A stretch of 64,000 bases of DNA, from the NCBI RefSeq assembly GCF_021018745.1, contig NZ_CP063845.1:4464001-4528000 (forward strand). The letters are read 5' to 3'. Below, piece after piece: positions 14,940 through 53,212 of this stretch; position 1 is the stretch's first letter; every line of letters begins with the position of its first letter. Made by a program: the position numbers and the translations under genes. The stretch comes from Gloeobacter morelensis MG652769. GTDB taxonomy: Bacteria; Cyanobacteriota; Cyanobacteriia; Gloeobacterales; Gloeobacteraceae. Under the pieces are notes generated by a model. That model saw nothing but the letters and a program-made list of their open reading frames with translations, was not told the DNA's origin and made no database searches.

Positions 14940-15695
14940 TTAGCGGCGGGCGCGAGGCCGCAGAAACAGCGCCACCGCCGCGAGAATCACCACCGCCGCC
15001 GCTCCGAAGCCAAGTAGTGAGGCGAGGTTGGCGTTCGCTTCGAGCGCCGCTGTTGCAACGCGCGCCTCGTCGATGGCGAGCGCATCGCCGGAGCCCAGGT
15101 TGACGCGCAGTACTGCGCCGAGATTGATCACTGCGCCGTCGAGTTCGGTGGCTTCGCCGGTCGAATCGAAGTTCGACTCCTCGCCCTCCGATTGGACCGG
15201 CGCAAGACGAATCTGCCCGGCGGCTTTGTCGCCGGCAGTGGCGTTCAGCCGATTTTCGGGCACTTCGAGGGCGAGGCGCGCGTCCTCGACATCGGTGATC
15301 TGCCCCTGGTAGCGCAACGTAGTGCGCGTGCGCGGGCCGATAGCCTCGAAGGTCGAACTGGCAAAAGCCACGGTAATTTCGCCCGGTTCACCGGCATTGG
15401 CCAGGGCCGGTAGTGGCCCTTCCCCGCCCGGCACGCCGCTCAGGGTGAGGCTGTGCTCTTTAGCCGGGGTGCTTTGCTCGACAAGCAGCAACCGCACCTC
15501 CACCTCACCCACCTCGCCCTCGTAGCGGATAGTGCCGGTTTGTTGCTCCCGGTCGAACTTGCCGCCGTCTTTGATTTCAAGCGTCTGTCCGGCGGCGGCC
15601 ACCCGCAGGGTCAGGGCCGTTGCCGGGTTGCACCCAACCAACAGCCCCACAAGCGGCAGTGCGAATACCAGCGGATACCGACAGGATCGAAGCAT
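14940..15695 (-). CDS. Hypothetical lipoprotein with C-terminal membrane anchor
   Basis: A 251-residue envelope protein. The signal peptide ends in a lipobox-like LLVGC at residues 18-22, so lipid attachment at Cys22 is likely. The body is beta-rich (TGTIRYEGEVGEVEVRLLLVE, TVAFASSTFEAIGPRTRTT) with no recognised domain. The C-terminus is a predicted transmembrane helix (SLLGFGAAAVVILAAVALF) followed by RPRARR. A lipoprotein with a second C-terminal anchor is unusual; the N-terminus may instead be an uncleaved helix. It ends 13 bp from the small ORF on the other strand, so the two are convergent. Function unknown. Confidence 0.65.
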   Translation of the reverse strand: MLRSCRYPLVFALPLVGLLVGCNPATALTLRVAAAGQTLEIKDGGKFDREQQTGTIRYEGEVGEVEVRLLLVEQSTPAKEHSLTLSGVPGGEGPLPALANAGEPGEITVAFASSTFEAIGPRTRTTLRYQGQITDVEDARLALEVPENRLNATAGDKAAGQIRLAPVQSEGEESNFDSTGEATELDGAVINLGAVLRVNLGSGDALAIDEARVATAALEANANLASLLGFGAAAVVILAAVALFLRPRARR

Positions 15696-15781
15696 TTTGT
15701 CAGGATAGCGGATCTGAGTGGAACCGACGCGGCGTGCATCGGTATGTTACATCTGGTTCGGAACATTTTCGGAGTCGCCTT

Positions 15782-17515
15782 TTGAACCGCCGAACGCTGC
15801 CGTTGCTGGCTGCCTTTGTCATCGGATCGGCCGCGCCCGCGGTCGCTCGCGACGGTGTGGTGAGCACCGCCCATCCTCTGGCCACCGAGGCGGGCGTCGA
15901 GATGCTGCGCAAAGGCGGCAACGCCATCGACGCCGCCATCGCCGCGAGCCTCGCCCTGGGTGTGGTCGAGCCGCAGTCCTCGGGAATCGGCGGGGGCGGC
16001 TTCGCGCTGGTGTGGCTTGGGCGGACCGCCGAGGCGCGCGTTCTCGATTTTCGCGAAGCGGCCCCGGGCCAAGCCGCCGCCGCGATGTATCTCGACCGGG
16101 CGGGCAAGGTGATCCCCCGGCTGTCGCTCGACGGTTACCGGGCGGCGGGGGTGCCCGGCCAGGCGGCAGGGCTGGTGAAATTGCAGCAAGCCTACGCGGC
16201 CTTGCCGTTGGTAACCCTGGCTGAACCGGCCATCCGCCTGGCCAGGGAAGGTTTTTTACTCAGCGATCTTGTGCGCGGCCGGATCGAGGCTGCGGCCGCG
16301 CGGCTGGGGCGCGACCCGGAGGCAAGTCGCATCTTTCTAGTGGAGGGTAAAGCCCCCCCGGCGGGTTATCGTCTGCAGCAGCCGGATCTAGCCCGCACCC
16401 TCCAGCTATGGGTCACCAGCGGCGGAGACAGTTTTTATCGGGGCGAGACGGCGGCGGCGATGGCGGCGGCGATGGCCGAGCGCGGCGGGCTGATCTCGCG
16501 CGCCGATCTCGAAAACTACAGCCCCATCTGGCGCACGCCCCTGGTGGGCAGTTACCGGGGGGTACCGGTGGTGACGATGCCGCCACCGGGCAGCGGCGGA
16601 GTGCTCCTGGAGATGCTCAATACCCTCGAAAACTTTAATCTGGCTGCCCAGACGCCGCTCCTGCGCACCCACCTCACCGCCCAGGCGATGAGCCGCGCCT
16701 ACGCCGACCGCTCGCGCTTCTACGGCGACCCGGCCTTCGTGCCGGTGCCTCTCGCCGCGCTGGTGGCCAAAAGCTACGGGGCAGCCCAGAAAAAAACGAT
16801 CTCCCTCGAACGGGCCACCCCTTCAACCCAGATCGTGCCGGGCAGCTTGCTCAACCCCGCCCTCCTGGCCGGATTCCAGAGTTGGGAAGGCCCGCGGCCG
16901 GTCGAAAACACCAGCCACCTGAGCACCATGGACGCCGACGGCAACACCGTAGCCCTCACCCAGACCATCAACGGCGGCTTCGGCGCGGCGGTGGTCGCCC
17001 CCAAAACGGGCATCCTGCTCAACAACGAGATGGACGATTTCGCCGTCGCCCCCGGCGTGCCCAACCTGTTCGGCCTGGTGGGCAGCAAGGCCAATGCCAT
17101 CGCCCCCGGCAAGCGGCCGCTCTCCTCGATGACCCCGACGATCCTGCTTAAAAATGGGCGACCCTGGATCGCTCTGGGTAGTCCCGGCGGGGCGTTTATC
17201 ACCAACGCCGTGCTGCAGACGATTCTAGGCGTGCTCGATTACAAATTGCCCCTGCCGGAGGCAGTGAACGCTCCGCGCATCCATCACCAATGGCAGCCCG
17301 ACCGATTGTTTGTCGAAAAAGCTTATCCTGTGGCCGAGGCAGCGCTCTCCGCCCTGGGTTATGAGCTGCGCGCTATCGAGGCGATGGGCAACGTCCAGGC
17401 GGTTCAGTACGAAGGCCGGTTCGTGGGGGCAAGCGACGGGCGCCGCGAGGGTACCAGCGCCGTCTGGCAGGCGCCCCCTAGGGCTGCTTCTCCGGCTGCT
17501 TCGCCGCGTCGTTGA
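15782..17515 (+). CDS. ggt: Gamma-glutamyltranspeptidase
   Basis: An exported autoprocessing Ntn-hydrolase that cleaves gamma-glutamyl bonds such as in glutathione. The 577-residue protein starts at a TTG (15782) with GGAG eight bases upstream. It has a signal peptide (NRRTLPLLAAFVIG, cut near AVARDG). The large-subunit hallmarks are TAHPLATEAGVEMLRKGGNA and SSGIGGGGFALVW. Autocleavage should occur before the Thr in ENTSHLSTMDADGNT, which becomes the nucleophile of the small subunit. PLSSMTPTILL and GSPGGAFI form the oxyanion region. The longer frame upstream of 15782 lacks a signal peptide at its own N-terminus. Its last 38 bases overlap the end of tatA on the other strand. Confidence 0.93.
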   Translation: MNRRTLPLLAAFVIGSAAPAVARDGVVSTAHPLATEAGVEMLRKGGNAIDAAIAASLALGVVEPQSSGIGGGGFALVWLGRTAEARVLDFREAAPGQAAAAMYLDRAGKVIPRLSLDGYRAAGVPGQAAGLVKLQQAYAALPLVTLAEPAIRLAREGFLLSDLVRGRIEAAAARLGRDPEASRIFLVEGKAPPAGYRLQQPDLARTLQLWVTSGGDSFYRGETAAAMAAAMAERGGLISRADLENYSPIWRTPLVGSYRGVPVVTMPPPGSGGVLLEMLNTLENFNLAAQTPLLRTHLTAQAMSRAYADRSRFYGDPAFVPVPLAALVAKSYGAAQKKTISLERATPSTQIVPGSLLNPALLAGFQSWEGPRPVENTSHLSTMDADGNTVALTQTINGGFGAAVVAPKTGILLNNEMDDFAVAPGVPNLFGLVGSKANAIAPGKRPLSSMTPTILLKNGRPWIALGSPGGAFITNAVLQTILGVLDYKLPLPEAVNAPRIHHQWQPDRLFVEKAYPVAEAALSALGYELRAIEAMGNVQAVQYEGRFVGASDGRREGTSAVWQAPPRAASPAASPRR

Positions 17516-17762
17516 TCTCAACAGGCGGCGGCTGCACCGACTCAACGACGTCGTAGGACCGGTTGGGAGTGGTCTGCGTCGCCGGGGGCTCGGCAAATTC
17601 GCGCTTGACCTCGCGCTCGAAGTCGCGCGAAACGTCCTTGAGCCCGCGCATCACTTTGCCGACGTTCTGCGCCAATTCCGGCAGCTTCTTAGGTCCAAAA
17701 ACCAGCAGGGCGACCGTCCCGATCACCAACAGCTCCAGCGGACCGACACCGAACAGTTCCAT
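17478..17762 (-). CDS. tatA: Twin-arginine translocase subunit TatA/Hcf106-type
   Basis: TatA-family proteins form the Tat pore or receptor in the cytoplasmic membrane, which is also the photosynthetic membrane if the organism lacks thylakoids. The 94-residue protein has the short N-terminal membrane helix (ELLVIGTVALLVFGPKKLPE) with the conserved FGPKKLPEL hinge. An amphipathic helix (LAQNVGKVMRGLKDVSRDFE) and a Pro-rich charged tail follow. It lies directly downstream of psbH on the same strand, an arrangement I recall from other cyanobacteria. Two alternative hairpins sit in the 76-bp gap between them. Its stop overlaps the 3' end of ggt by 38 bases. Confidence 0.9.
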   Translation of the reverse strand: MELFGVGPLELLVIGTVALLVFGPKKLPELAQNVGKVMRGLKDVSRDFEREVKREFAEPPATQTTPNRSYDVVESVQPPPVEINDAAKQPEKQP

Positions 17763-17792
17763 CGAAGTGACCTTCTCGCTTCGTCAAGTATA

Positions 17793-17824
17793 GGGCAGGC
17801 CCCTGCCCATCCAGGGACAGGGGC
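17793..17824 (-). terminator. Alternative overlapping hairpins between psbH and tatA
   Basis: Two stems share bases. GGGCAGG (17793-17799) pairs with CCTGCCC (17802-17808), and GCCCCTG (17799-17805) pairs with CAGGGGC (17818-17824). They cannot form together. They end psbH or attenuate read-through into tatA; there is no T-run after either on the minus strand. Confidence 0.45.
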
Positions 17825-17838
17825 GATGCTCCAAAAGA

Positions 17839-18075
17839 TTAGCGCGACTGTGGGTAATAACCGTAACCCTGAGCGGCCGGGCTTTGCGGCACACCCTCGT
17901 TGACGCCTTCAAGAAGCAAGGAGTTGTTGGCAATCTGCAGGATGATGATGAGAAAGACGCCAAAAAGGGCAATCAAAGCTCCCATGATCGGGGTGGTCCC
18001 CCAACCGGGGCTGGCCTTGCCAATCTCGGAGTTAAGCGGCTTCAATCGGTCTCCTAACCAGGTCCTACGGGCCAT
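17839..18075 (-). CDS. psbH: Photosystem II protein PsbH
   Basis: A 78-residue single-pass subunit of the PSII core that lies near CP47 and supports the QB site and CP47 assembly. The sequence shows the family pattern: a short N-terminal stretch ([17 protein letters not shown]), the invariant [10 protein letters not shown] before the membrane helix ([20 protein letters not shown]), and a lumenal tail. As in other cyanobacteria, the extended phosphorylated N-terminus of plant PsbH is absent. The ATG at 18073-18075 has AGGTG upstream, and a perfect TATAAT -10 box lies at 18106-18111. psbN is divergent 160 bp away. Confidence 0.97.
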
Positions 18076-18105
18076 CAGTGCACCTGTCGCAATGAATGTT
18101 TCTAA

Positions 18106-18111
18106 ATTATA
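18106..18111 (-). promoter_or_regulatory. psbH promoter, -10 box
   Basis: On the minus strand TATAAT lies 30 bp upstream of the psbH ATG. The -35 region is weak (best candidates TTGGGT at 14 bp or AAGTTG at 17 bp), so activator dependence is possible. Confidence 0.45.
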
Positions 18112-18235
18112 CGTATTTTATCGAGACCCAACTTAAACGGGAACTTTTTTATCGAAGCGATCGTAGGAGCCTTCGGTTGCACGCGGTCGGCAAACCTGAC
18201 ACACTGGAGGGGTAAGTTCACATTTCGAAACAGCC

Positions 18236-18367
18236 ATGACCGTAGCGCAGGTTTTCGTCGTCGGCATTCTGGTGTCCCTGGTACTGGTCACGGCCTTCGC
18301 CGTGTACACGGCCTTCGGTCCGCCCTCCAAGAAACTGGCCGATCCTTTTGAGATGCACGAGGATTAA
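18236..18367 (+). CDS. psbN: PsbN, PSII assembly/repair factor
   Basis: A 43-residue peptide: [20 protein letters not shown] begins it, followed by [23 protein letters not shown]. The membrane helix and the conserved [20 protein letters not shown] tail define PsbN. It is not a stable PSII subunit; work on plants shows it is needed for repair from photoinhibition and early PSII assembly. The gene is on the strand opposite its psb neighbours, as it is in plastids. A GGAGGGG lies about 24 bases before the ATG, which is far for a ribosome site. The 3' end faces psbT across a shared bidirectional hairpin. Confidence 0.95.
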
Positions 18368-18421
18368 TCGCTTTTAGGTGCCGGGTTCGAGAAGATTGGC
18401 GCGCATTACCGCACCGAGCCA

Positions 18422-18446
18422 AAAGGCCACCCAATGGGTGGCCTTT
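18422..18446. terminator. Bidirectional terminator between psbN and psbT
   Basis: AAAGGCCACCC (18422-18432) and GGGTGGCCTTT (18436-18446) form an 11-bp perfect stem with an AAT loop. A's at the left end and T's at the right end serve both directions. It ends psbN from the left and psbT from the right. Confidence 0.8.
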
Positions 18447-18476
18447 CGCGCGTTCGTCTGATTGCTGGAAACCTGG

Positions 18477-18581
18477 TTATTTACTCCTCTTCTCCGGAAA
18501 GAAGACGGCAAAGAAGATGGCCAGGATGATGAGGGCCAGAATCAGGACGTAGGTGATGGTGGTGATACCGCTCGAACCCAT
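18477..18581 (-). CDS. psbT: Photosystem II protein PsbT
   Basis: A 34-residue peptide begins MGSSGITTITYVLILALIIL and ends FFAVFFPEKRSK. It has one membrane helix followed by the F-F-x-x-F-x-(P/E)-x basic end that marks PsbT, a small PSII subunit at the dimer interface that helps reassembly after photodamage. It lies directly downstream of psbB on the same strand, the conserved position of psbT in cyanobacteria and plastids. AGAGGAG lies before the ATG. The N-terminus is 3-4 residues longer than typical (MESVAY), so the sequence is divergent, and position supports the call as much as similarity does. Confidence 0.8.
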   Translation of the reverse strand: MGSSGITTITYVLILALIILAIFFAVFFPEKRSK

Positions 18582-18632
18582 ATCGAGAGTGCTCCTCTGA
18601 AAGTAAGCATGGCAAGTGCAACAACGACGGCC

Positions 18633-18648
18633 GGGGGGGCGCCCCCCC
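18633..18648. repeat. G7-CG-C7 palindrome between psbB and psbT
   Basis: GGGGGGGCGCCCCCCC is a perfect 16-bp palindrome, placed 13 bp after the psbB stop and 51 bp before psbT. In mRNA it should give a very stable stem that could stop RNA polymerase or protect the psbB 3' end. Confidence 0.75.
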
Positions 18649-18661
18649 CGTTCATCCTAAG

Positions 18662-20272
18662 CTAGGCCGCCTCGGTCTCATCTCTGCGGGTGGTCGGGTC
18701 GCCCAGCTTCTTGAATACGCCGTATTCGAATTCTTCTTCCTGGCGGGTCGGGTCGACGCCGGTAAACACATCCAAGAAGAGCGTGCGTGCCCCGTGCCAG
18801 ATGTGCCCGAAGAAGAACAACAGCGCGAAGATACCGTGGGCCAGAACGAACCAGCCGCGGGTGCTGGTGCGGAAGACACCGTCGGCATCCTTGGTGTCGA
18901 ACTCGATGAGTTCACCGAGCTGGGAGCGCTTGGCGTAGCTCTTGACCTGGGCCGGATCCTCGAAGCTCTGGCCGTTGAGCTTGCCGCCCACGAAGGAAAC
19001 CGTCACGCCGGTCTGCTCGAAGCTCAGTTGCGATTCGGAGCGCTGGAACGGAATGTCGGCGCGGGGGATGTTGTCTTTGTCGACGAGGACAACCGGCTGG
19101 GTCTCATAGAGGGTGTTCAGGTGAACGACGCGCAGTTCGCGACCTTCCTTGTCCTTGAAGTTGGGCTGACCGAGCCATCCGGTTGCCACACCATCGCCAT
19201 TGTTCATCGGGCCGCCGCGGAACAGACCGCCCTTGGCGGGGCTGTTGCCGACGTAGTCGTAGAACCGCAGGCGCAACGGCACGGCGTTCTCGGCCTCGCC
19301 GCGGCTCATGCCCTTGGCCATGTTGGCGGTCACCAGCTCGTTAATTTTCTTGTCGTAGACCTGGGCATCCCAGAAGTAGCGCACCGGCCCGAACAGCTCC
19401 ACCGGGTTGGTGGCGGTGCCGTACCAGAAGGTACCGGCCACCACGAAGGCGGCAAAGAAGACCGCCGCCAAGGCGCTTGCTAGAACCGTCTCGATGTTGC
19501 CCATGCGCAAGGCGCGGTAGAGCCGCTCCGGTGGACGCACCGCGATGTGAAATATACCGCCCAGGATGCCGACGATGCCGGCGGCGACGTGGTGGGCGGC
19601 GATCCCCGCCGGGTTGTAAGGGTTAAATCCATCCGCACCCCAGGCAAATCCGGTCGGCACTACGACCCCCAGGGCTTCTGGATTCATGCCTTGCAGCAAA
19701 TTGCCGTACTTACCCAGATCGACGTAGATCGGGTCGGCTGAGACCCACATGCCGATGGTTTGCATGTGCACAGCACCGAAACCGAAGCACGCAAGCCCCG
19801 AAAGGAGCAGGTGGATGCCGAAGATCTTGGGCAAATCCAGGCCCAATTCGCCGTTGCGGGGGTTGCGAAACAGTTCGAGATCCCAGTTGACCCAGTGCCA
19901 GCAGGCCGCGAGGAACAACAGACCCGAGAGTACAATGTGGGCCGCGGCGACCCCTTCGAAGGACCAGAAGCCGACGTTGGCGACGTTTGGGTCAATGCGG
20001 TTGCCCAGACCGTCGGCTGTAAAAGGACCGAAGACCGACCAGCCGGACCAGGAGTTGATCACGCCGAGGCGGGCCATAAACGGAATGACGTACATTCCCT
20101 GCCGCCACATCGGGTCGAGAACGGGATCTTCAGGGTTGAAGACAGACGCTTCGAAAAACGCCATCGAGCCCGCCCAACCGGCCACCAGTGCTGTGTGCAT
20201 CAGGTGTACCGCAATCAACCGTCCTGGATCTGAGGTGACAACGGTGTGCACCCGATACCAAGGTAGTCCCAT
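18662..20272 (-). CDS. psbB: Photosystem II CP47 core antenna protein
   Basis: PsbB binds about 16 chlorophylls as the inner antenna of PSII and is essential for its core. The 536-residue sequence opens [20 protein letters not shown] and holds six membrane helices with the chlorophyll-ligand His residues ([50 protein letters not shown]). The large lumenal loop E runs from about residue 265 to 440. The usual length is about 508 residues; the surplus is in loop E and a longer C-terminus ([21 protein letters not shown]). AAGGAGG precedes the ATG. psbT follows 80 bp downstream, and a ferredoxin gene is divergent 249 bp upstream. Confidence 0.99.
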
Positions 20273-20521
20273 CGATCTAGTCCTCCTTAAACTACTCCAG
20301 AAGCAACCAGGATCCTGCTGTCCAAAGCGCCTATACTGCTTTTACCAACGCGGTCCGCTTTTGTGGTTGCCCCAGCTATTGGAAAACAGTATAAAGAAGT
20401 GTAACCAATGCTCAGCAAGAGTGCAACTCTTTTTTGCGGCCCTTTACCGCTCCGTAACACAGCCGGGGATCAAGGGGAGTTGCCGTTTCCCGTCAGCTGA
20501 GACTCCGAAGGCAAGGGGAAG

Positions 20522-20818
20522 ATGGCCACGATCCATTTCGAAGCCGAGGGCACGACCGCCTATGTGATGGACGGTACGATCCTGCGCGATGTGATGCTCG
20601 AAAAACGCATCGATCTTTACAAGGGTATGGCCAAGGTGCTCAACTGCGGTGGGGTGGGCCAATGCGGCACCTGCATCGTCGATATTCTCTCGGGCACGGA
20701 ACACTGTTCGCAGCGCACACCGGTTGAGGATCAGAAGCTGCGCAAGAAGCCTCTCTCCTACCGCCTGGCCTGCCAGACGCTAATCAGTGGTGAGGTACGG
20801 GTGCGTTCAAAGCCCTGA
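20522..20818 (+). CDS. Plant-type [2Fe-2S] ferredoxin
   Basis: A 98-residue electron carrier. The cluster ligands are Cys42, Cys48, Cys51 (NCGGVGQCGTC) and Cys84 (RLACQT). The first spacing, CX5CX2C, is that of the plant-type/adrenodoxin superfamily. An extra Cys62 is present. It is basic toward the C-terminus (KLRKKP, EVRVRSKP), unlike the acidic photosynthetic PetF, so it is a specialised ferredoxin. I recall similar genes beside psbB in other cyanobacteria, but its partner is unknown. GGGGA lies before the ATG, and the probable psbM gene follows after 68 bp, suggesting an operon. Confidence 0.88.
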   Translation: MATIHFEAEGTTAYVMDGTILRDVMLEKRIDLYKGMAKVLNCGGVGQCGTCIVDILSGTEHCSQRTPVEDQKLRKKPLSYRLACQTLISGEVRVRSKP

Positions 20819-20886
20819 TCGTCGCCGCTGGCGCTCCCTGGTGATATCCTGTGTGGAGGACGCGCGCCTGAGGCGATAGAGATTCG

Positions 20887-20976
20887 ATGAACATTGCACT
20901 GCTTGCGATTGCTTTGCTGGTCCTGGTCTGCTGCGGCTTTCTGGTGATTGTCTGGGTCCAGTCCGAGAACAAGTAA
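20887..20976 (+). CDS. psbM: Probable photosystem II protein PsbM
   Basis: A 29-residue peptide, MNIALLAIALLVLVCCGFLV then IVWVQSENK. It aligns with PsbM along its length: the LxxxLLVLVxxxFLxIxxVQS stretch matches the membrane helix and the conserved (Y/W)(I/V)Q(T/S) end of PsbM. PsbM sits at the PSII dimer interface. It is shorter than usual (33-36 residues) and the family Pro is replaced by Cys. The position beside the psbB-linked ferredoxin supports the call. The identification rests on 20-odd residues, so another small PSII or cytochrome b6f subunit is possible. Confidence 0.6.
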   Translation: MNIALLAIALLVLVCCGFLVIVWVQSENK

Positions 20977-20993: not shown

Positions 20994-21338
20994 CCAGGTT
21001 TTGCTGATTTGCTGGGGCAGCTGTCTGCGATGTTGCGGACAGACTGGTCTGGTTTCGGTTTCTCGGCGCCGCGGTGTGCTTGTTGCGACTGTGGTCTACT
21101 GGTTGAGAATTTGTAGTGCGATTCTAGGTTTCGTTGGGCATTCGGAAGTCCAAATGGCTCAGTATGCCTGGAATTTACAATAGTTCACAGCGCTTGTCAG
21201 CTTGCGAACGCATAAACATTCCGGGTTGGCCCTACAACGATGTGGCAACCCATTATCTCCCCTATTTGCGGTAGTTTTGCCGTGGGGTTCATCCGATGGG
21301 CAACCGCGCTACCTCCCTACACCAGAAGGGTTAGGCCC

Positions 21339-23618
21339 ATGCACACAAATTTTTTGCCAGGGAACCACGCTTCGTGCGGCTTTGCGCTCCTGCAGCCAAG
21401 TCGCTTGCTTCCGCTAATGATCCTGCTGACGGTCGCACTCGTCGGCACCCTCTGCCGACCGGCTTTGGCCAGAACGACTGAACAAGTCCTTGCGCCCCAT
21501 CAGCCGGCAAACTTGCCATACTCGCTGGGCAAGCAGCAGACGCCGATGGCCGCCGTATCGGCTCTGCTCGGCGCTCCGGATGGATTCAAGCGGACCGCTG
21601 CAAGCGGTGTCAGGCTTGCCCAGGCTGCACCCGCCAACGACAACTTCGTCGATGCCGAGACGCTCAGCGGCCCCTCGGCCTCGGTGACAGGAACCAACGT
21701 CGGAGCCACCAAAGAACCGGGTGAACCGGATCACGGAGGCGATATCGGTGGCGCTTCGGTCTGGTACACCTGGACGGCACCGACGTCGGGATCGGTGTTT
21801 TTGGATGCATGTCCCAGTTTCTTCAGCAATGTGCTGGCGGTGTACACGGGCGATTCGGTCTCCGCCCTCACACCGGTTACCCAATTTGGTTTCTGCCAAC
21901 AAACGCTTCCGGTCCTAGCCGGTACGACTTACCAGATCGCCATCGACGGCTTGAACTTTGGCTTCGGGCCGTCCACAGGCACCATCAATTTGAACCTGAC
22001 GCTCTTCGAACCGCCCGCCAACGACAACTTCGCCGATCGTGAGACGATCAGCGGTACTGCGGCGACGGTGACGGGCACGAATGTCGCAGCCACCAAGGAA
22101 CCGGGCGAACCCGACCACGGCAGCAATGTTGGCGGTGCCTCGGTCTGGTACACCTGGACGGCACCATTTACGGGTACAGCGACTTTGAACGCCTGCAGCA
22201 GCTTTTTTTCCTTGCTACTGGGAGTCTACACCGGCGACACCGTTTCCGCACTCACGCCAGTCGCCTCCATCGATTCTTGCCAGTTGAATTTCAGTGCCAT
22301 AGCCGGTACGACTTACCAGATCGCCATCGACGGCTTGAACTTCGGCTCCGGGCCGTTCACGGGCACCATCAACTTGAGCTTGTCGCTCTCCGAGCCTCCC
22401 GCCAACGACAACTTCGCCGATCGCGAAGTGATCAGCGGCAAATCGGTGACGGTGTCGGGCAGCAACATCGGTGCCACCCGAGAGGTTGGCGAACCGGTTG
22501 ATCCTTTCGGTAGCGTCGGTGCGTCGGTGTGGTATTCCTGGACAGCGCCTACCTCCGGCACGGTCACCCTGACCACCGTCACCAGTTCCTTCAGCCCACT
22601 GTTGTCCGTCTTTACGGGCGATGCGGTCTCCAGCCTGACACCGGTGGCCTCTTCGAGCTTCTCGCTGACTTTCGAGGCCGTGGCCGGTACGACTTATCAA
22701 ATTTCTGTGGACGGATTTTCCGACACCGGCACATTTACGTTGTCGTTGTCACTGGCTCCACCCAATGACGATTTTGCCGATGCAACGGTCATCCCGAGCA
22801 AGCGCCAACCCCTGCTGTACGTGCAGCGGGCCGGCAACGAAGGAGCGACCAAGGAATTCGATGAACCCGAACATGCCGCCAATCCCGGCGGCAAATCGCT
22901 CTGGTGGACCTGGACAGCCGCTACCACCGGTCCGGTCAGCGTTTCCACCAAAGGCAGCAACTTCAACACGTTGCTGGCGGTTTACCAGGGTGACTCGCTT
23001 GCCTCGCTCATCCTGGTGGCCGCCAATGACGACCTGCCCACCCGTCCCCAGAGCGGCGTGACGTTCACCGCCGTAGCCGGCAATACCTACAAAATCGCGG
23101 TGGATGGCTCCAGCGTCGATTTTGGGACTGCAGCTTCGGGCAGAGTGCTCTTCTCGCTGACCAGCCAGATCCAGTCGCTTGCCACAAGCGACATGAACGG
23201 CGACGGCAAGGCCGACAGGTTGGTAAGAAACCACCAGAGCGGCACCAACACTCTGCAGTTGATGGACGGCGACCGCGTGGCGCGCACAGTGGCCCTGCCC
23301 GCCCTGGGTGAGGGGTTCTGGCTGGCTGGTGCTGCTGGAGACCTTAACGGCGACGGACACCGCGATATCTTCTGGCGCAACCACGCCACGGGCGAAAACA
23401 GTGTCTGGCTGATGAAAGGCACCCGACGCCTCTCCACCCTGGCTTTGCCCCCGCTCGGGGATTTGCAATGGCAGATGGCCGGCACCGGCGATTTCAACGG
23501 TGACCGCAAGCCGGACATCGTCTGGCGTCATCCCGACGCAGCTAAGGGCTTTGTCTGGCTGATGGACGGCACCAAGGTGCTAAAAGCCCTCCCCACCCAT
23601 CTGTTCACGCGCAAATAG
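21339..23618 (+). CDS. Exported repeat protein: four beta-sandwich repeats plus FG-GAP/VCBS repeats
   Basis: A 759-residue secreted or surface protein. After a long signal sequence (SRLLPLMILLTVALVGTLC, ending ALAR) come four repeats of roughly 120 residues. Each starts PANDNFAD/PPNDDFAD and contains GATKEPGEPDH, SVWYTWTAP and AGTTYQIAIDG. These resemble bacterial pre-peptidase C-terminal beta-sandwich domains. The last 150 residues carry three VCBS/FG-GAP repeats with Ca-binding loops (DMNGDGKAD, DLNGDGHRD, DFNGDRKPD). No catalytic domain is present, so adhesion or a cell-surface role is likely. The start at 21339 has AAGGG upstream; a GTG/ATG at 21240 would add 33 residues. Repeats one to three are nearly identical in DNA over short blocks. 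Confidence 0.8.
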   Translation: MHTNFLPGNHASCGFALLQPSRLLPLMILLTVALVGTLCRPALARTTEQVLAPHQPANLPYSLGKQQTPMAAVSALLGAPDGFKRTAASGVRLAQAAPANDNFVDAETLSGPSASVTGTNVGATKEPGEPDHGGDIGGASVWYTWTAPTSGSVFLDACPSFFSNVLAVYTGDSVSALTPVTQFGFCQQTLPVLAGTTYQIAIDGLNFGFGPSTGTINLNLTLFEPPANDNFADRETISGTAATVTGTNVAATKEPGEPDHGSNVGGASVWYTWTAPFTGTATLNACSSFFSLLLGVYTGDTVSALTPVASIDSCQLNFSAIAGTTYQIAIDGLNFGSGPFTGTINLSLSLSEPPANDNFADREVISGKSVTVSGSNIGATREVGEPVDPFGSVGASVWYSWTAPTSGTVTLTTVTSSFSPLLSVFTGDAVSSLTPVASSSFSLTFEAVAGTTYQISVDGFSDTGTFTLSLSLAPPNDDFADATVIPSKRQPLLYVQRAGNEGATKEFDEPEHAANPGGKSLWWTWTAATTGPVSVSTKGSNFNTLLAVYQGDSLASLILVAANDDLPTRPQSGVTFTAVAGNTYKIAVDGSSVDFGTAASGRVLFSLTSQIQSLATSDMNGDGKADRLVRNHQSGTNTLQLMDGDRVARTVALPALGEGFWLAGAAGDLNGDGHRDIFWRNHATGENSVWLMKGTRRLSTLALPPLGDLQWQMAGTGDFNGDRKPDIVWRHPDAAKGFVWLMDGTKVLKALPTHLFTRK

Positions 23619-48284: not shown

Positions 48285-48295
48285 TTTATTATTTC

Positions 48296-48410
48296 CCTGG
48301 CACCGGGCTATTTTCCCAGGAAGCTGCCCTCCAAGTATCTTCGCTGCTGCAGCGTTTAACGTCCGAGTTCGGGATGGATCGGCGTGGTTCCACTGCGCCT
48401 AAGCACCAGG
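48296..48410 (-). rRNA. rrf: 5S ribosomal RNA
   Basis: The minus strand starts CCTGGTGCTTAGGCGCAG and ends GTGCCAGG; the termini pair in helix I. The central block ATCCCGAACTCGGACGTTAAAC is the conserved loop with the CCGAACTCGG core. About 115 nt. It is the last gene of the rRNA operon, 77 bp after 23S. Confidence 0.9.
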
Positions 48411-48439
48411 AAAACTTAACAGCGTTGCACCAAAGCAAC

Positions 48440-48460
48440 ACCTTGAAAACTGCACAGTGA
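48440..48460 (-). ncRNA. 23S precursor processing stem, 3' arm
   Basis: ACCTTGAAAACTGCA (48440-48454), with AGTGACGTA after one mismatch, is complementary to TACGTCACTATGCAGTTTTC (51330-51349) before 23S. In the transcript these flank the 23S rRNA and should form the RNase III-type stem. Confidence 0.7.
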
Positions 48461-48487
48461 CGTAGGCCAACAAATAGCACCAACAGG

Positions 48488-51271
<2,784 letters not shown>

Positions 51272-51329
51272 TACACTTGGCCAATTACATCACATTCGTA
51301 ATCGACCCATTGGTGGTCTACTTGTTGTT

Positions 51330-51354
51330 ACGTCACTATGCAGTTTTCAAGGTG
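51330..51354 (-). ncRNA. 23S precursor processing stem, 5' arm
   Basis: TACGTCACTATGCAGTTTTC (plus-strand reading from 51330) is the complement of the 48440-48460 region, with one mismatch. It lies 59 bp before the 23S 5' end and completes the processing stem. Confidence 0.7.
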
Positions 51355-51424
51355 CTGTTTTCTTTCAGGGTCTTACCATAGCACGCGGCTATCTTAAGAC
51401 ACCAGATTTAGACATTGGCTCGGG

Positions 51425-51500
51425 TGGTGGAGGCAAGCGGGTTCGAACCGCTGACCTCCTGCGTGCAAAGCAGGCGCTCTACCAGCTGAGCTATGCCCCC
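51425..51500 (-). tRNA. trnA: tRNA-Ala(TGC) in the rRNA spacer
   Basis: The minus strand reads GGGGGCATAGCTCAGCTGG at the 5' end. The anticodon TGC is in the CTTTGCACG loop, TTCGAAC in the T loop, and the acceptor ends TGCCTCC-A. The 3' CCA appears to be encoded (51425-51427). It lies between 16S and 23S, as is standard in bacteria. Confidence 0.97.
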
Positions 51501-51512
51501 AGAAATTGGATG

Positions 51513-51586
<74 letters not shown>

Positions 51587-51626
51587 AAAATCCGCAGCCA
51601 AACGGCTGCTAAAACCCGAACCAGTG

Positions 51627-51642
51627 AATAGTTTGAAAGCCA
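51627..51642 (-). ncRNA. 16S precursor processing stem, 3' arm
   Basis: GAATAGTTTGAAAGCC on the plus strand (51627-51642) is the exact reverse complement of 53302-53317. In the minus-strand transcript these are the 3' and 5' flanks of 16S and pair in a 16-bp stem, extended inward by GU pairs and CTCGT/ACGAG. Confidence 0.75.
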
Positions 51643-51724
51643 CAAACTCGTCGACCTAGGATACCGGACAACCTCGACCACACACACATCCGTAGTGTGG
51701 TTCAGGAGGTGCCGGGGGTCTCCC

Positions 51725-53212
<1,488 letters not shown>

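Follow-up and report, generated by a model that had tools for sequence, protein, structure and literature searches.

A plastid-like psbB gene cluster in Gloeobacter morelensis, probably a retained ancestral union of two photosystem II gene blocks

Introduction

Is the psbB gene cluster of Gloeobacter morelensis MG652769, in which psbB, psbT, psbN and psbH stand in the order of the plastid cluster, a remnant of the cyanobacterial ancestor or a later assembly? The cluster lies in a stretch of 64,000 nucleotides (contig NZ_CP063845.1, positions 4,464,001 to 4,528,000), hereafter the window, of a 5.10-Mb genome in 3 contigs that has G013 and G033 as congeners. An earlier note on this DNA had proposed that an early-branching lineage either preserved a union of psbB–psbT with psbN–psbH or re-formed it. 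Our analysis assigns a probability of roughly 0.73 to the view that the locus keeps an ancestral union of two blocks, psbM–ferredoxin/psbB–psbT and psbN/psbH–tatA, with psbT and psbN convergent where they meet. The pattern of occurrence thus favours the first half of that proposal, while the union proved not to be Gloeobacter's alone.

Gene content and order of the locus

The earlier note had read the minus-strand order psbB–psbT–(psbN reversed)–psbH–tatA with a ferredoxin and psbM beyond psbB, and all seven genes gave profile matches at these places. The features, in window coordinates, are:

17478–17762, minus strand: tatA, a TatA/E-type twin-arginine translocase subunit, which ends the right block (PF02416, 57 bits, 1.4e-15; NF011429 above cut-off)
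17839–18075, minus strand: psbH (PF00737, 101 bits, 2.5e-29; NF002728 above cut-off)
18236–18367, plus strand: psbN (PF02468, 79 bits, 2e-22; NF009650 above cut-off)
18422–18446: palindromic hairpin in the psbT/psbN gap, with 11-bp perfect arms and a 3-nt loop
18477–18581, minus strand: psbT, 34 amino acids (PF01405, 23.4 bits against a cut-off of 22.4, 5.3e-05; NCBIfam 17.1 against 55)
18662–20272, minus strand: psbB, encoding CP47, 536 amino acids (TIGR03039, 951 bits, 1.2e-286)
20522–20818, plus strand, divergent to psbB: 2Fe-2S ferredoxin (PF00111, 38 bits, 1.4e-09)
20887–20976, plus strand: psbM, 29 amino acids (PF05151, 25.8 bits against 24, 9.3e-06; NCBIfam 24.9 against 35.05)

Read along psbB, the cluster starts with psbM and ferredoxin, both reversed, and goes on with psbB, psbT, psbN (reversed), psbH and tatA; the coordinates and strands bear out that psbT and psbN converge and that psbN and psbH diverge. 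The identities of psbB, psbH, psbN and tatA are certain, and psbB is the single strong match in the genome (runner-up 40 bits, 27% identity). The matches of psbT and psbM lie barely above the Pfam cut-offs and below the NCBIfam ones; we accept both calls because the genes are placed where their homologues sit in relatives. Family models built for this analysis find PsbT 3' of psbB in 36 of 40 family representatives, which cover 37 families outside Gloeobacter's order, and place PsbM past the ferredoxin in 20 of the 40. The same seven-gene order recurs in three further Gloeobacter genomes (L146, L147 and L148), so that it is no assembly accident. G. violaceus and G. kilaueensis both keep the seven genes; these two species share little synteny according to a passage of PMC3806779.

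The ferredoxin carries the cysteine pattern CX5CX2CXnC, which is found in 77 of 77 homologues detected by the family model in the scanned loci and differs from the CX4CX2C pattern of plant-type ferredoxins.

Rarity of the union

One genome was taken per genus from 154 genera outside the order, and at a psbB threshold of E up to 1e-100, psbB was located in 151 of them, psbH in 152 and both genes in 149. The main copies lie less than 600 bases apart on the same strand in only three of the 149 (G074, G126 and G020), each time with psbT and psbN between them. They are apart in the other 146, as the earlier note had stated of most cyanobacteria: the distance is 12 kb in G155, and the remaining genera have the two genes further apart or on separate contigs (coordinates compared by eye). 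The full order is therefore rare among the genomes compared, and the finding that the earlier note had named as fatal to a retained rare arrangement, an order common across cyanobacteria, did not emerge; we rejected that reading.

A search of the whole G126 family (29 genomes, 11 genera) added a fourth outside case, G262, which counts as weak evidence because its psbB, psbN and psbH are frameshifted. Confinement of the union to Gloeobacter was rejected on the cases found elsewhere. In G262 (L197, L340) rpoB is broken too and the genome is 74% complete, which may reflect assembly error or real decay.

Gloeobacterales were represented by 9 genomes of 6 genera. The gene after psbT is psbN in 7 genomes of 4 genera, and psbH comes after psbN in 5 of these 7. 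The junction keeps one and the same orientation, its PsbT and PsbN model matches lying 77–128 bp apart, in those 7 of 9 genomes and in G074, G126 and G020. All seven genes stand in order on a single contig in each of the four Gloeobacter genomes and in G020; a contig end inside psbB interrupts the order in G072. Named loci that extend 400 bases or more beyond psbT, or beyond psbB if no PsbT was found, number 77; psbN lies within 400 bases past psbT in one of them (L033), and likewise in L034 on a shorter contig. These two correspond to G104 and G047. After psbN in G104 (L149, after 4818), another reversed ORF stands in place of psbH.

The three outside genera belong to different groups. G074 is assigned to Gloeomargaritales, its PsbB being closest (88%) to that of VI4D9, a member of that order with which G035 is colinear (psbB 95% at the protein level). 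G126 and G262 form a sister pair to the rest of a Thermosynechococcus-type family, in which the PsbB of one member groups with that of a locus named Thermosynechococcus. G020 is the sole genome examined of its order and carries the junction and rpoB on one 1.03-Mb contig.

Two further observations concern gene absence. PsbT was not found after psbB by the family model in L073 and L161, two Gloeomargaritales, so that it is lost, moved or too divergent there. G353 and G383, single-contig genomes of 2.8–3.0 Mb and 99% completeness, gave no psbH match and may be non-photosynthetic endosymbionts.

The two halves across cyanobacteria

By themselves, the two halves of the cluster are widespread. A divergent ferredoxin adjoins psbB in 48 of 76 named loci (those of 80 whose upstream sequence exceeds 1,500 bases) and in 21 of the 40 family representatives, and psbM is near psbB in 45 and 20 of them, respectively. 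The earlier note had regarded the ferredoxin and psbM as extending the cluster; a special extension peculiar to this lineage is rejected, as both are common beside psbB. On the other side, psbN is divergent to psbH in 39 of the 40 representatives' psbH regions, with tatA beyond in 32, and psbB was found in none of the 40; psbN is placed beside psbH in most cyanobacteria in a passage of PMC4823308. Since the left and right blocks are each ordinary, only the contact of psbT with psbN is unusual.

The commonest neighbour of psbT elsewhere is nrdR, which adjoins psbT in 22 of 44 psbB regions and lies one ORF further in 3 more, in 24 families altogether (NrdR and RpsA were confirmed by NCBIfam on one representative each). 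In deep lineages with a split cluster, the neighbours of psbT are other than nrdR and differ from lineage to lineage, which fits separate breaks.

Species trees and the direction of change

Two species trees were built. The first comprises 60 genomes and 2,925 columns of RpoB, RpoC1 and RpoC2, with Gloeobacterales represented by RpoB only, and was inferred with FastTree. The second is a 46-taxon IQ-TREE in which long branches were lessened and crown taxa cut by leaving out 14 taxa (G055, G090, G262, G304, G065, G313, G276, G163, G022, G021, G326, G299, G007 and G101). In passing, neither rpoC1 nor rpoC2 was found after rpoB in 7 Gloeobacterales regions (L307, L310, L316, L319, L320, L323 and L335), two of which end at contig ends, and rpoC1 is beside rpoB in 50 of 53 other genomes.

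In the 60-genome tree, all union holders fall outside a clade of 29 genomes (support 0.937) that contains 21 with psbT–nrdR and 8 with other states. The tree includes 22 of the 24 nrdR families, of which 21 are in this single clade, and the idea that the split is ancestral because psbT–nrdR is commonest was rejected on this ground. The family left outside, f4, comprises two psbT–nrdR genomes that we take to be Prochlorococcus/Synechococcus-like; it is pulled deep by a long branch, and neither the 46-taxon tree nor the parsimony count on the FastTree topology includes it. Prochlorococcus is placed in the crown in PMC6640209. The 46-taxon tree recovers the psbT–nrdR clade at 98% (19 genomes, 15 of them psbT–nrdR), joins G074 to Gloeomargaritales at 100% and makes G126 sister to the rest of its family at 100%.

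Parsimony on the psbT neighbour as a multistate character, with G049 and several f28 and f25 members whose neighbour was unread coded as not union and otherwise unknown, reconstructs a root that already has the union, followed by nine losses and not a single gain. This costs 14 steps against 15 on the IQ-TREE topology and 15 against 17 on the FastTree topology, and the gap widens when gains cost more. On a published backbone (after PMC6640209), the result does not change whichever of seven places G020 is given, and among the combinations tried a tie arises only when G020, G074, G126 and plastids are all omitted. A stronger argument than the step count is that one exact adjacency should be far likelier to be broken than to be made by chance.

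Re-formation and the far-red-type gene pairs

The union might instead have been re-formed independently in Gloeobacterales, in G020, in Gloeomargaritales (with plastids) and in the G126 lineage, through a favoured adjacency or recurrent rearrangement. Its rare and scattered occurrence is what such a history would produce, and at equal costs retention is ahead by only 1–2 steps. However, under re-formation the same adjacency would have arisen about four or more separate times, always in one orientation and with similar gaps; a priori each such gain has perhaps one chance in several thousand per rearrangement. In the RNA-polymerase trees every union case found is placed outside the crown clade. 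We therefore regard it as improbable.

A further point on this question comes from second copies. In 10 of the 154 genomes (G113, G140, G148, G160, G185, G188, G189, G199, G303 and G312), a psbB lies beside a divergent psbH copy. In nine of them this psbB is a second full-length one; in G140 it is the only full-length psbB, the other match being partial and below the cut-off. Neither a PsbT nor a PsbN match was found between the psbB and psbH copies in the four such loci examined (L157–L160), and psbD/psbA- and psbC-like genes lie upstream of this psbB (by eye). On these two features the loci look like far-red-light clusters, and we presume that they are of the far-red-light (FaRLiP) type. That psbB and psbH copies also come together there speaks for re-formation, and the lack of psbT and psbN between the copies examined speaks against it. 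The far-red-type psbB–psbH pair may derive from the ancestral union or be a separate joining.

Gene trees and horizontal transfer

A different history would have the cluster, or its psbN–psbH–tatA half, moved between lineages by horizontal transfer. The PsbB tree comprises 54 sequences, one representative having been omitted for want of a full PsbB, and the PsbN–PsbH–TatA tree 49 tips and 167 columns with mostly weak support. Some placements would suit a transfer: the PsbB of G020 groups with two crown families (f6 and f15) at 0.90, unlike in the RNA-polymerase tree, and in the PsbN–PsbH–TatA tree G074 (with f23) and G126 (with f19) are placed away from their own families, each at 0.91, and G020 goes with f8 and f34 at 0.69. 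Against this, in the PsbB tree G074 joins Gloeomargaritales (0.995), and G126 joins three of the four further members of its family sampled there (0.97), the fourth, G221, being elsewhere. The representatives of f6, f15 and f23 have psbT–nrdR and so are not evident donors of the union; the contig of the f19 representative ends before the psbT neighbour. With so few columns behind the right-block tree, we tentatively read its discordance as noise more than transfer. G074, G126 and G020 do not group with Gloeobacter in either gene tree, and transfer from Gloeobacter to the other holders was rejected because neither tree shows it, though both are partly discordant with the species tree. Altogether, transfer appears very improbable as the source of the pattern.

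The psbT|psbN junction and transcription

The junction palindrome of the window has A's before it and T's after it, so that runs of 4 T in the psbT direction and 3 T in the psbN direction follow the stem. A comparable arm was found in 0 of 300 dinucleotide shuffles, with a minimum free energy z of –2.3 (–2.9 in a fold of a slightly different stretch). A two-way hairpin is present at the junction in 9 of 10 genomes folded, with perfect arms of 13–19 bp in six relatives. Those of G126 and G020 are imperfect, with z values of –3.0 and –3.3, which were used because the perfect-arm measure misses hairpins with longer loops or mismatches. The arms covary between genomes, for example GGCCACCC/GGGTGGCC in one against AGCCACCC/GGGTGGCT in another (by eye). 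A scan for promoter and terminator consensus gave no excess over shuffles and has no power here; it missed the junction hairpin with its short T-runs.

A hairpin of this kind could terminate transcription from both sides. psbB–psbT and psbN would then be two separate transcription units that terminate at the shared two-way hairpin, while psbH–tatA would be expressed from the psbN/psbH gap, a start suggested by the fact that this block stands apart in most family representatives. The ferredoxin–psbM pair and psbB would share a divergent promoter region in their common gap. The cluster thus gathers an inner antenna protein, small photosystem II and assembly proteins and a Tat component, and is probably not one mRNA.

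The order and orientation that led the earlier note to liken the cluster to the plastid psbB operon are indeed the same; it is the word operon that the two-way hairpin between psbT and psbN makes doubtful. A single psbB–psbT–psbH(–tatA) operon with psbN antisense, as in land-plant plastids, would accord with the same strand and close spacing of psbB, psbT, psbH and tatA, and the plastid counterpart is described in PMC3555233 as a pentacistronic unit that is processed. Yet the psbT/psbN hairpin recurs in 9 of the 10 folded genomes, and psbN/psbH–tatA is free-standing in most family representatives, where psbH would need its own promoter. The palindrome of the plastid psbT/psbN gap is called weak and read through in a passage of PMC3038987, so the hairpin alone does not decide the operon question. 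We consider a single operon unlikely.

Neighbouring genes

A gamma-glutamyltransferase gene (15620–17515, plus strand) is convergent with tatA, the 3' ends of the two genes overlapping by 38 bases. In four Gloeobacteraceae loci (L146, L147, L148 and L150), the corresponding position past tatA is taken, in the same orientation, by an ORF belonging to one cluster. Just past psbM lies an ORF of 792 amino acids (21240–23618, plus strand) that has repeated stretches at its N-terminus and matches PPC and FG-GAP, and the window also holds a complete rRNA operon (48295–53212, minus strand) in the order 16S–tRNA-Ile–tRNA-Ala–23S–5S.

Discussion

In the reading that we favour, retention, the common ancestor of living oxygenic cyanobacteria would probably have had the union already, and most of the Gloeobacterales examined, at least three other deep lineages and plastids would have kept it. 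It would have been broken at the psbT|psbN boundary several times, and in one crown clade psbT would have come to precede nrdR. This pattern suggests that breaks fall repeatedly at the convergent junction and that the two blocks tend to stay intact.

Several observations weigh against retention, beside the discordant gene-tree placements of G020, G074 and G126 given above. The second Gloeobacterales family (G083 and G094) is split, psbB and psbN lying 91 kb apart on one chromosome in G083 and on different contigs in G094. The contig of G047 ends 140 bp past psbN, and no psbH was found in G104 (L149) in the 1,026 bp left on the contig after psbN. The state of G104 resembles that of the Cyanophora plastid, with psbB/T/N together and psbH elsewhere, or may be an assembly fault; the Cyanophora plastid itself, where a passage of PMC3555233 describes psbH as apart from psbB/T/N, belongs among the contrary cases. 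Among seven other Gloeomargaritales genomes, six have psbN–psbH–tatA apart from psbB, and the seventh gave no psbN match. The position of G020 between Pseudanabaena-type genomes and the rest receives just 63 and 57% in the 46-taxon tree, and its placement has support 0 in FastTree. The genomes of G074, G126 and G262 are fragmented drafts, and that of G020 is in about 40 contigs; a binning or assembly fault is possible in any single one of them. Folding gave no hairpin that stands out at the G074 junction (z –1.7), the T-runs of the window hairpin are short, and the parsimony margin at equal costs is narrow.

The arrangement is real and rare, and its interest lies in plastid origins and not in new biochemistry. 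Sequence trees have given conflicting answers on where plastids branch, as PMC6640209 recounts, and in the same source plastids are sister to Gloeomargarita, a position that receives modest support in a passage of PMC10631705. The psbT|psbN contact, probably ancestral, and the psbT–nrdR contact, shared and derived, would offer a separate line of evidence. We lean slightly towards the view that psbT–nrdR is a single derived change that marks the crown, and that plastids, which have psbT|psbN, thus stand outside it. If this is true, it amounts to a rare genomic change that speaks, independently of sequence trees, against a recent plastid origin near the nitrogen-fixing crown, and a genus of Gloeomargaritales that still has the union would stand next to plastids. 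The comparison further suggests that the plastid psbB cluster was inherited and not assembled after endosymbiosis; on gene order, common descent is favoured by only 1–2 parsimony steps at equal costs.

Among the matches listed in our literature search, no report of the four-gene order in Gloeobacter, Gloeomargaritales or other cyanobacteria appeared; plastid-cluster papers under subscription lay outside the search and may note it. The words psbB, psbN and psbH are absent from the main texts of PMC13326532, PMC3806779 and PMC11304991.

Comparison with known systems

The locus combines two familiar cyanobacterial arrangements. With the psbM–ferredoxin/psbB–psbT(–nrdR–rpsA) locus it shares the left four genes in the same order, ferredoxin–psbM being divergent to psbB; nrdR follows psbT there in 25 of 44 psbB regions, whereas psbN does so in Gloeobacter. 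With the psbN/psbH–tatA(–pth) locus it shares the right three genes in the same order, psbN being divergent to psbH and tatA downstream. Elsewhere this locus is apart from psbB, and in Gloeobacter tatA is followed by the convergent gamma-glutamyltransferase gene and not by pth. As compared with the far-red-type pair, Gloeobacter likewise has psbB and then psbH on the same strand; unlike in Gloeobacter, the far-red-type genes are paralogous copies in which psbH comes directly after psbB, with no psbT or psbN between them in the four loci.

The four-gene core is like the plastid psbB cluster. PMC3555233 reports psbB/T/N/H in the plastids of Porphyra, Guillardia, several green algae and land plants. 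Both clusters contain the same four genes in the same order and orientation: psbB, psbT and psbH are on one strand, with only the opposite-strand psbN between psbT and psbH. A palindrome in the psbT/psbN gap is also common to both, being widespread in plastids according to a passage of PMC3038987; the likeness concerns its position and kind. The clusters differ at their ends. In the land-plant psbB operon petB and petD come after psbH, whereas in Gloeobacter psbH is followed by tatA and then by the gamma-glutamyltransferase gene, and the five-gene land-plant transcript is taken in PMC3555233 as a later fusion with petB/petD. In addition, unlike the plastid cluster, that of Gloeobacter is preceded by the divergent ferredoxin and psbM, and its parts would be transcribed as separate units.

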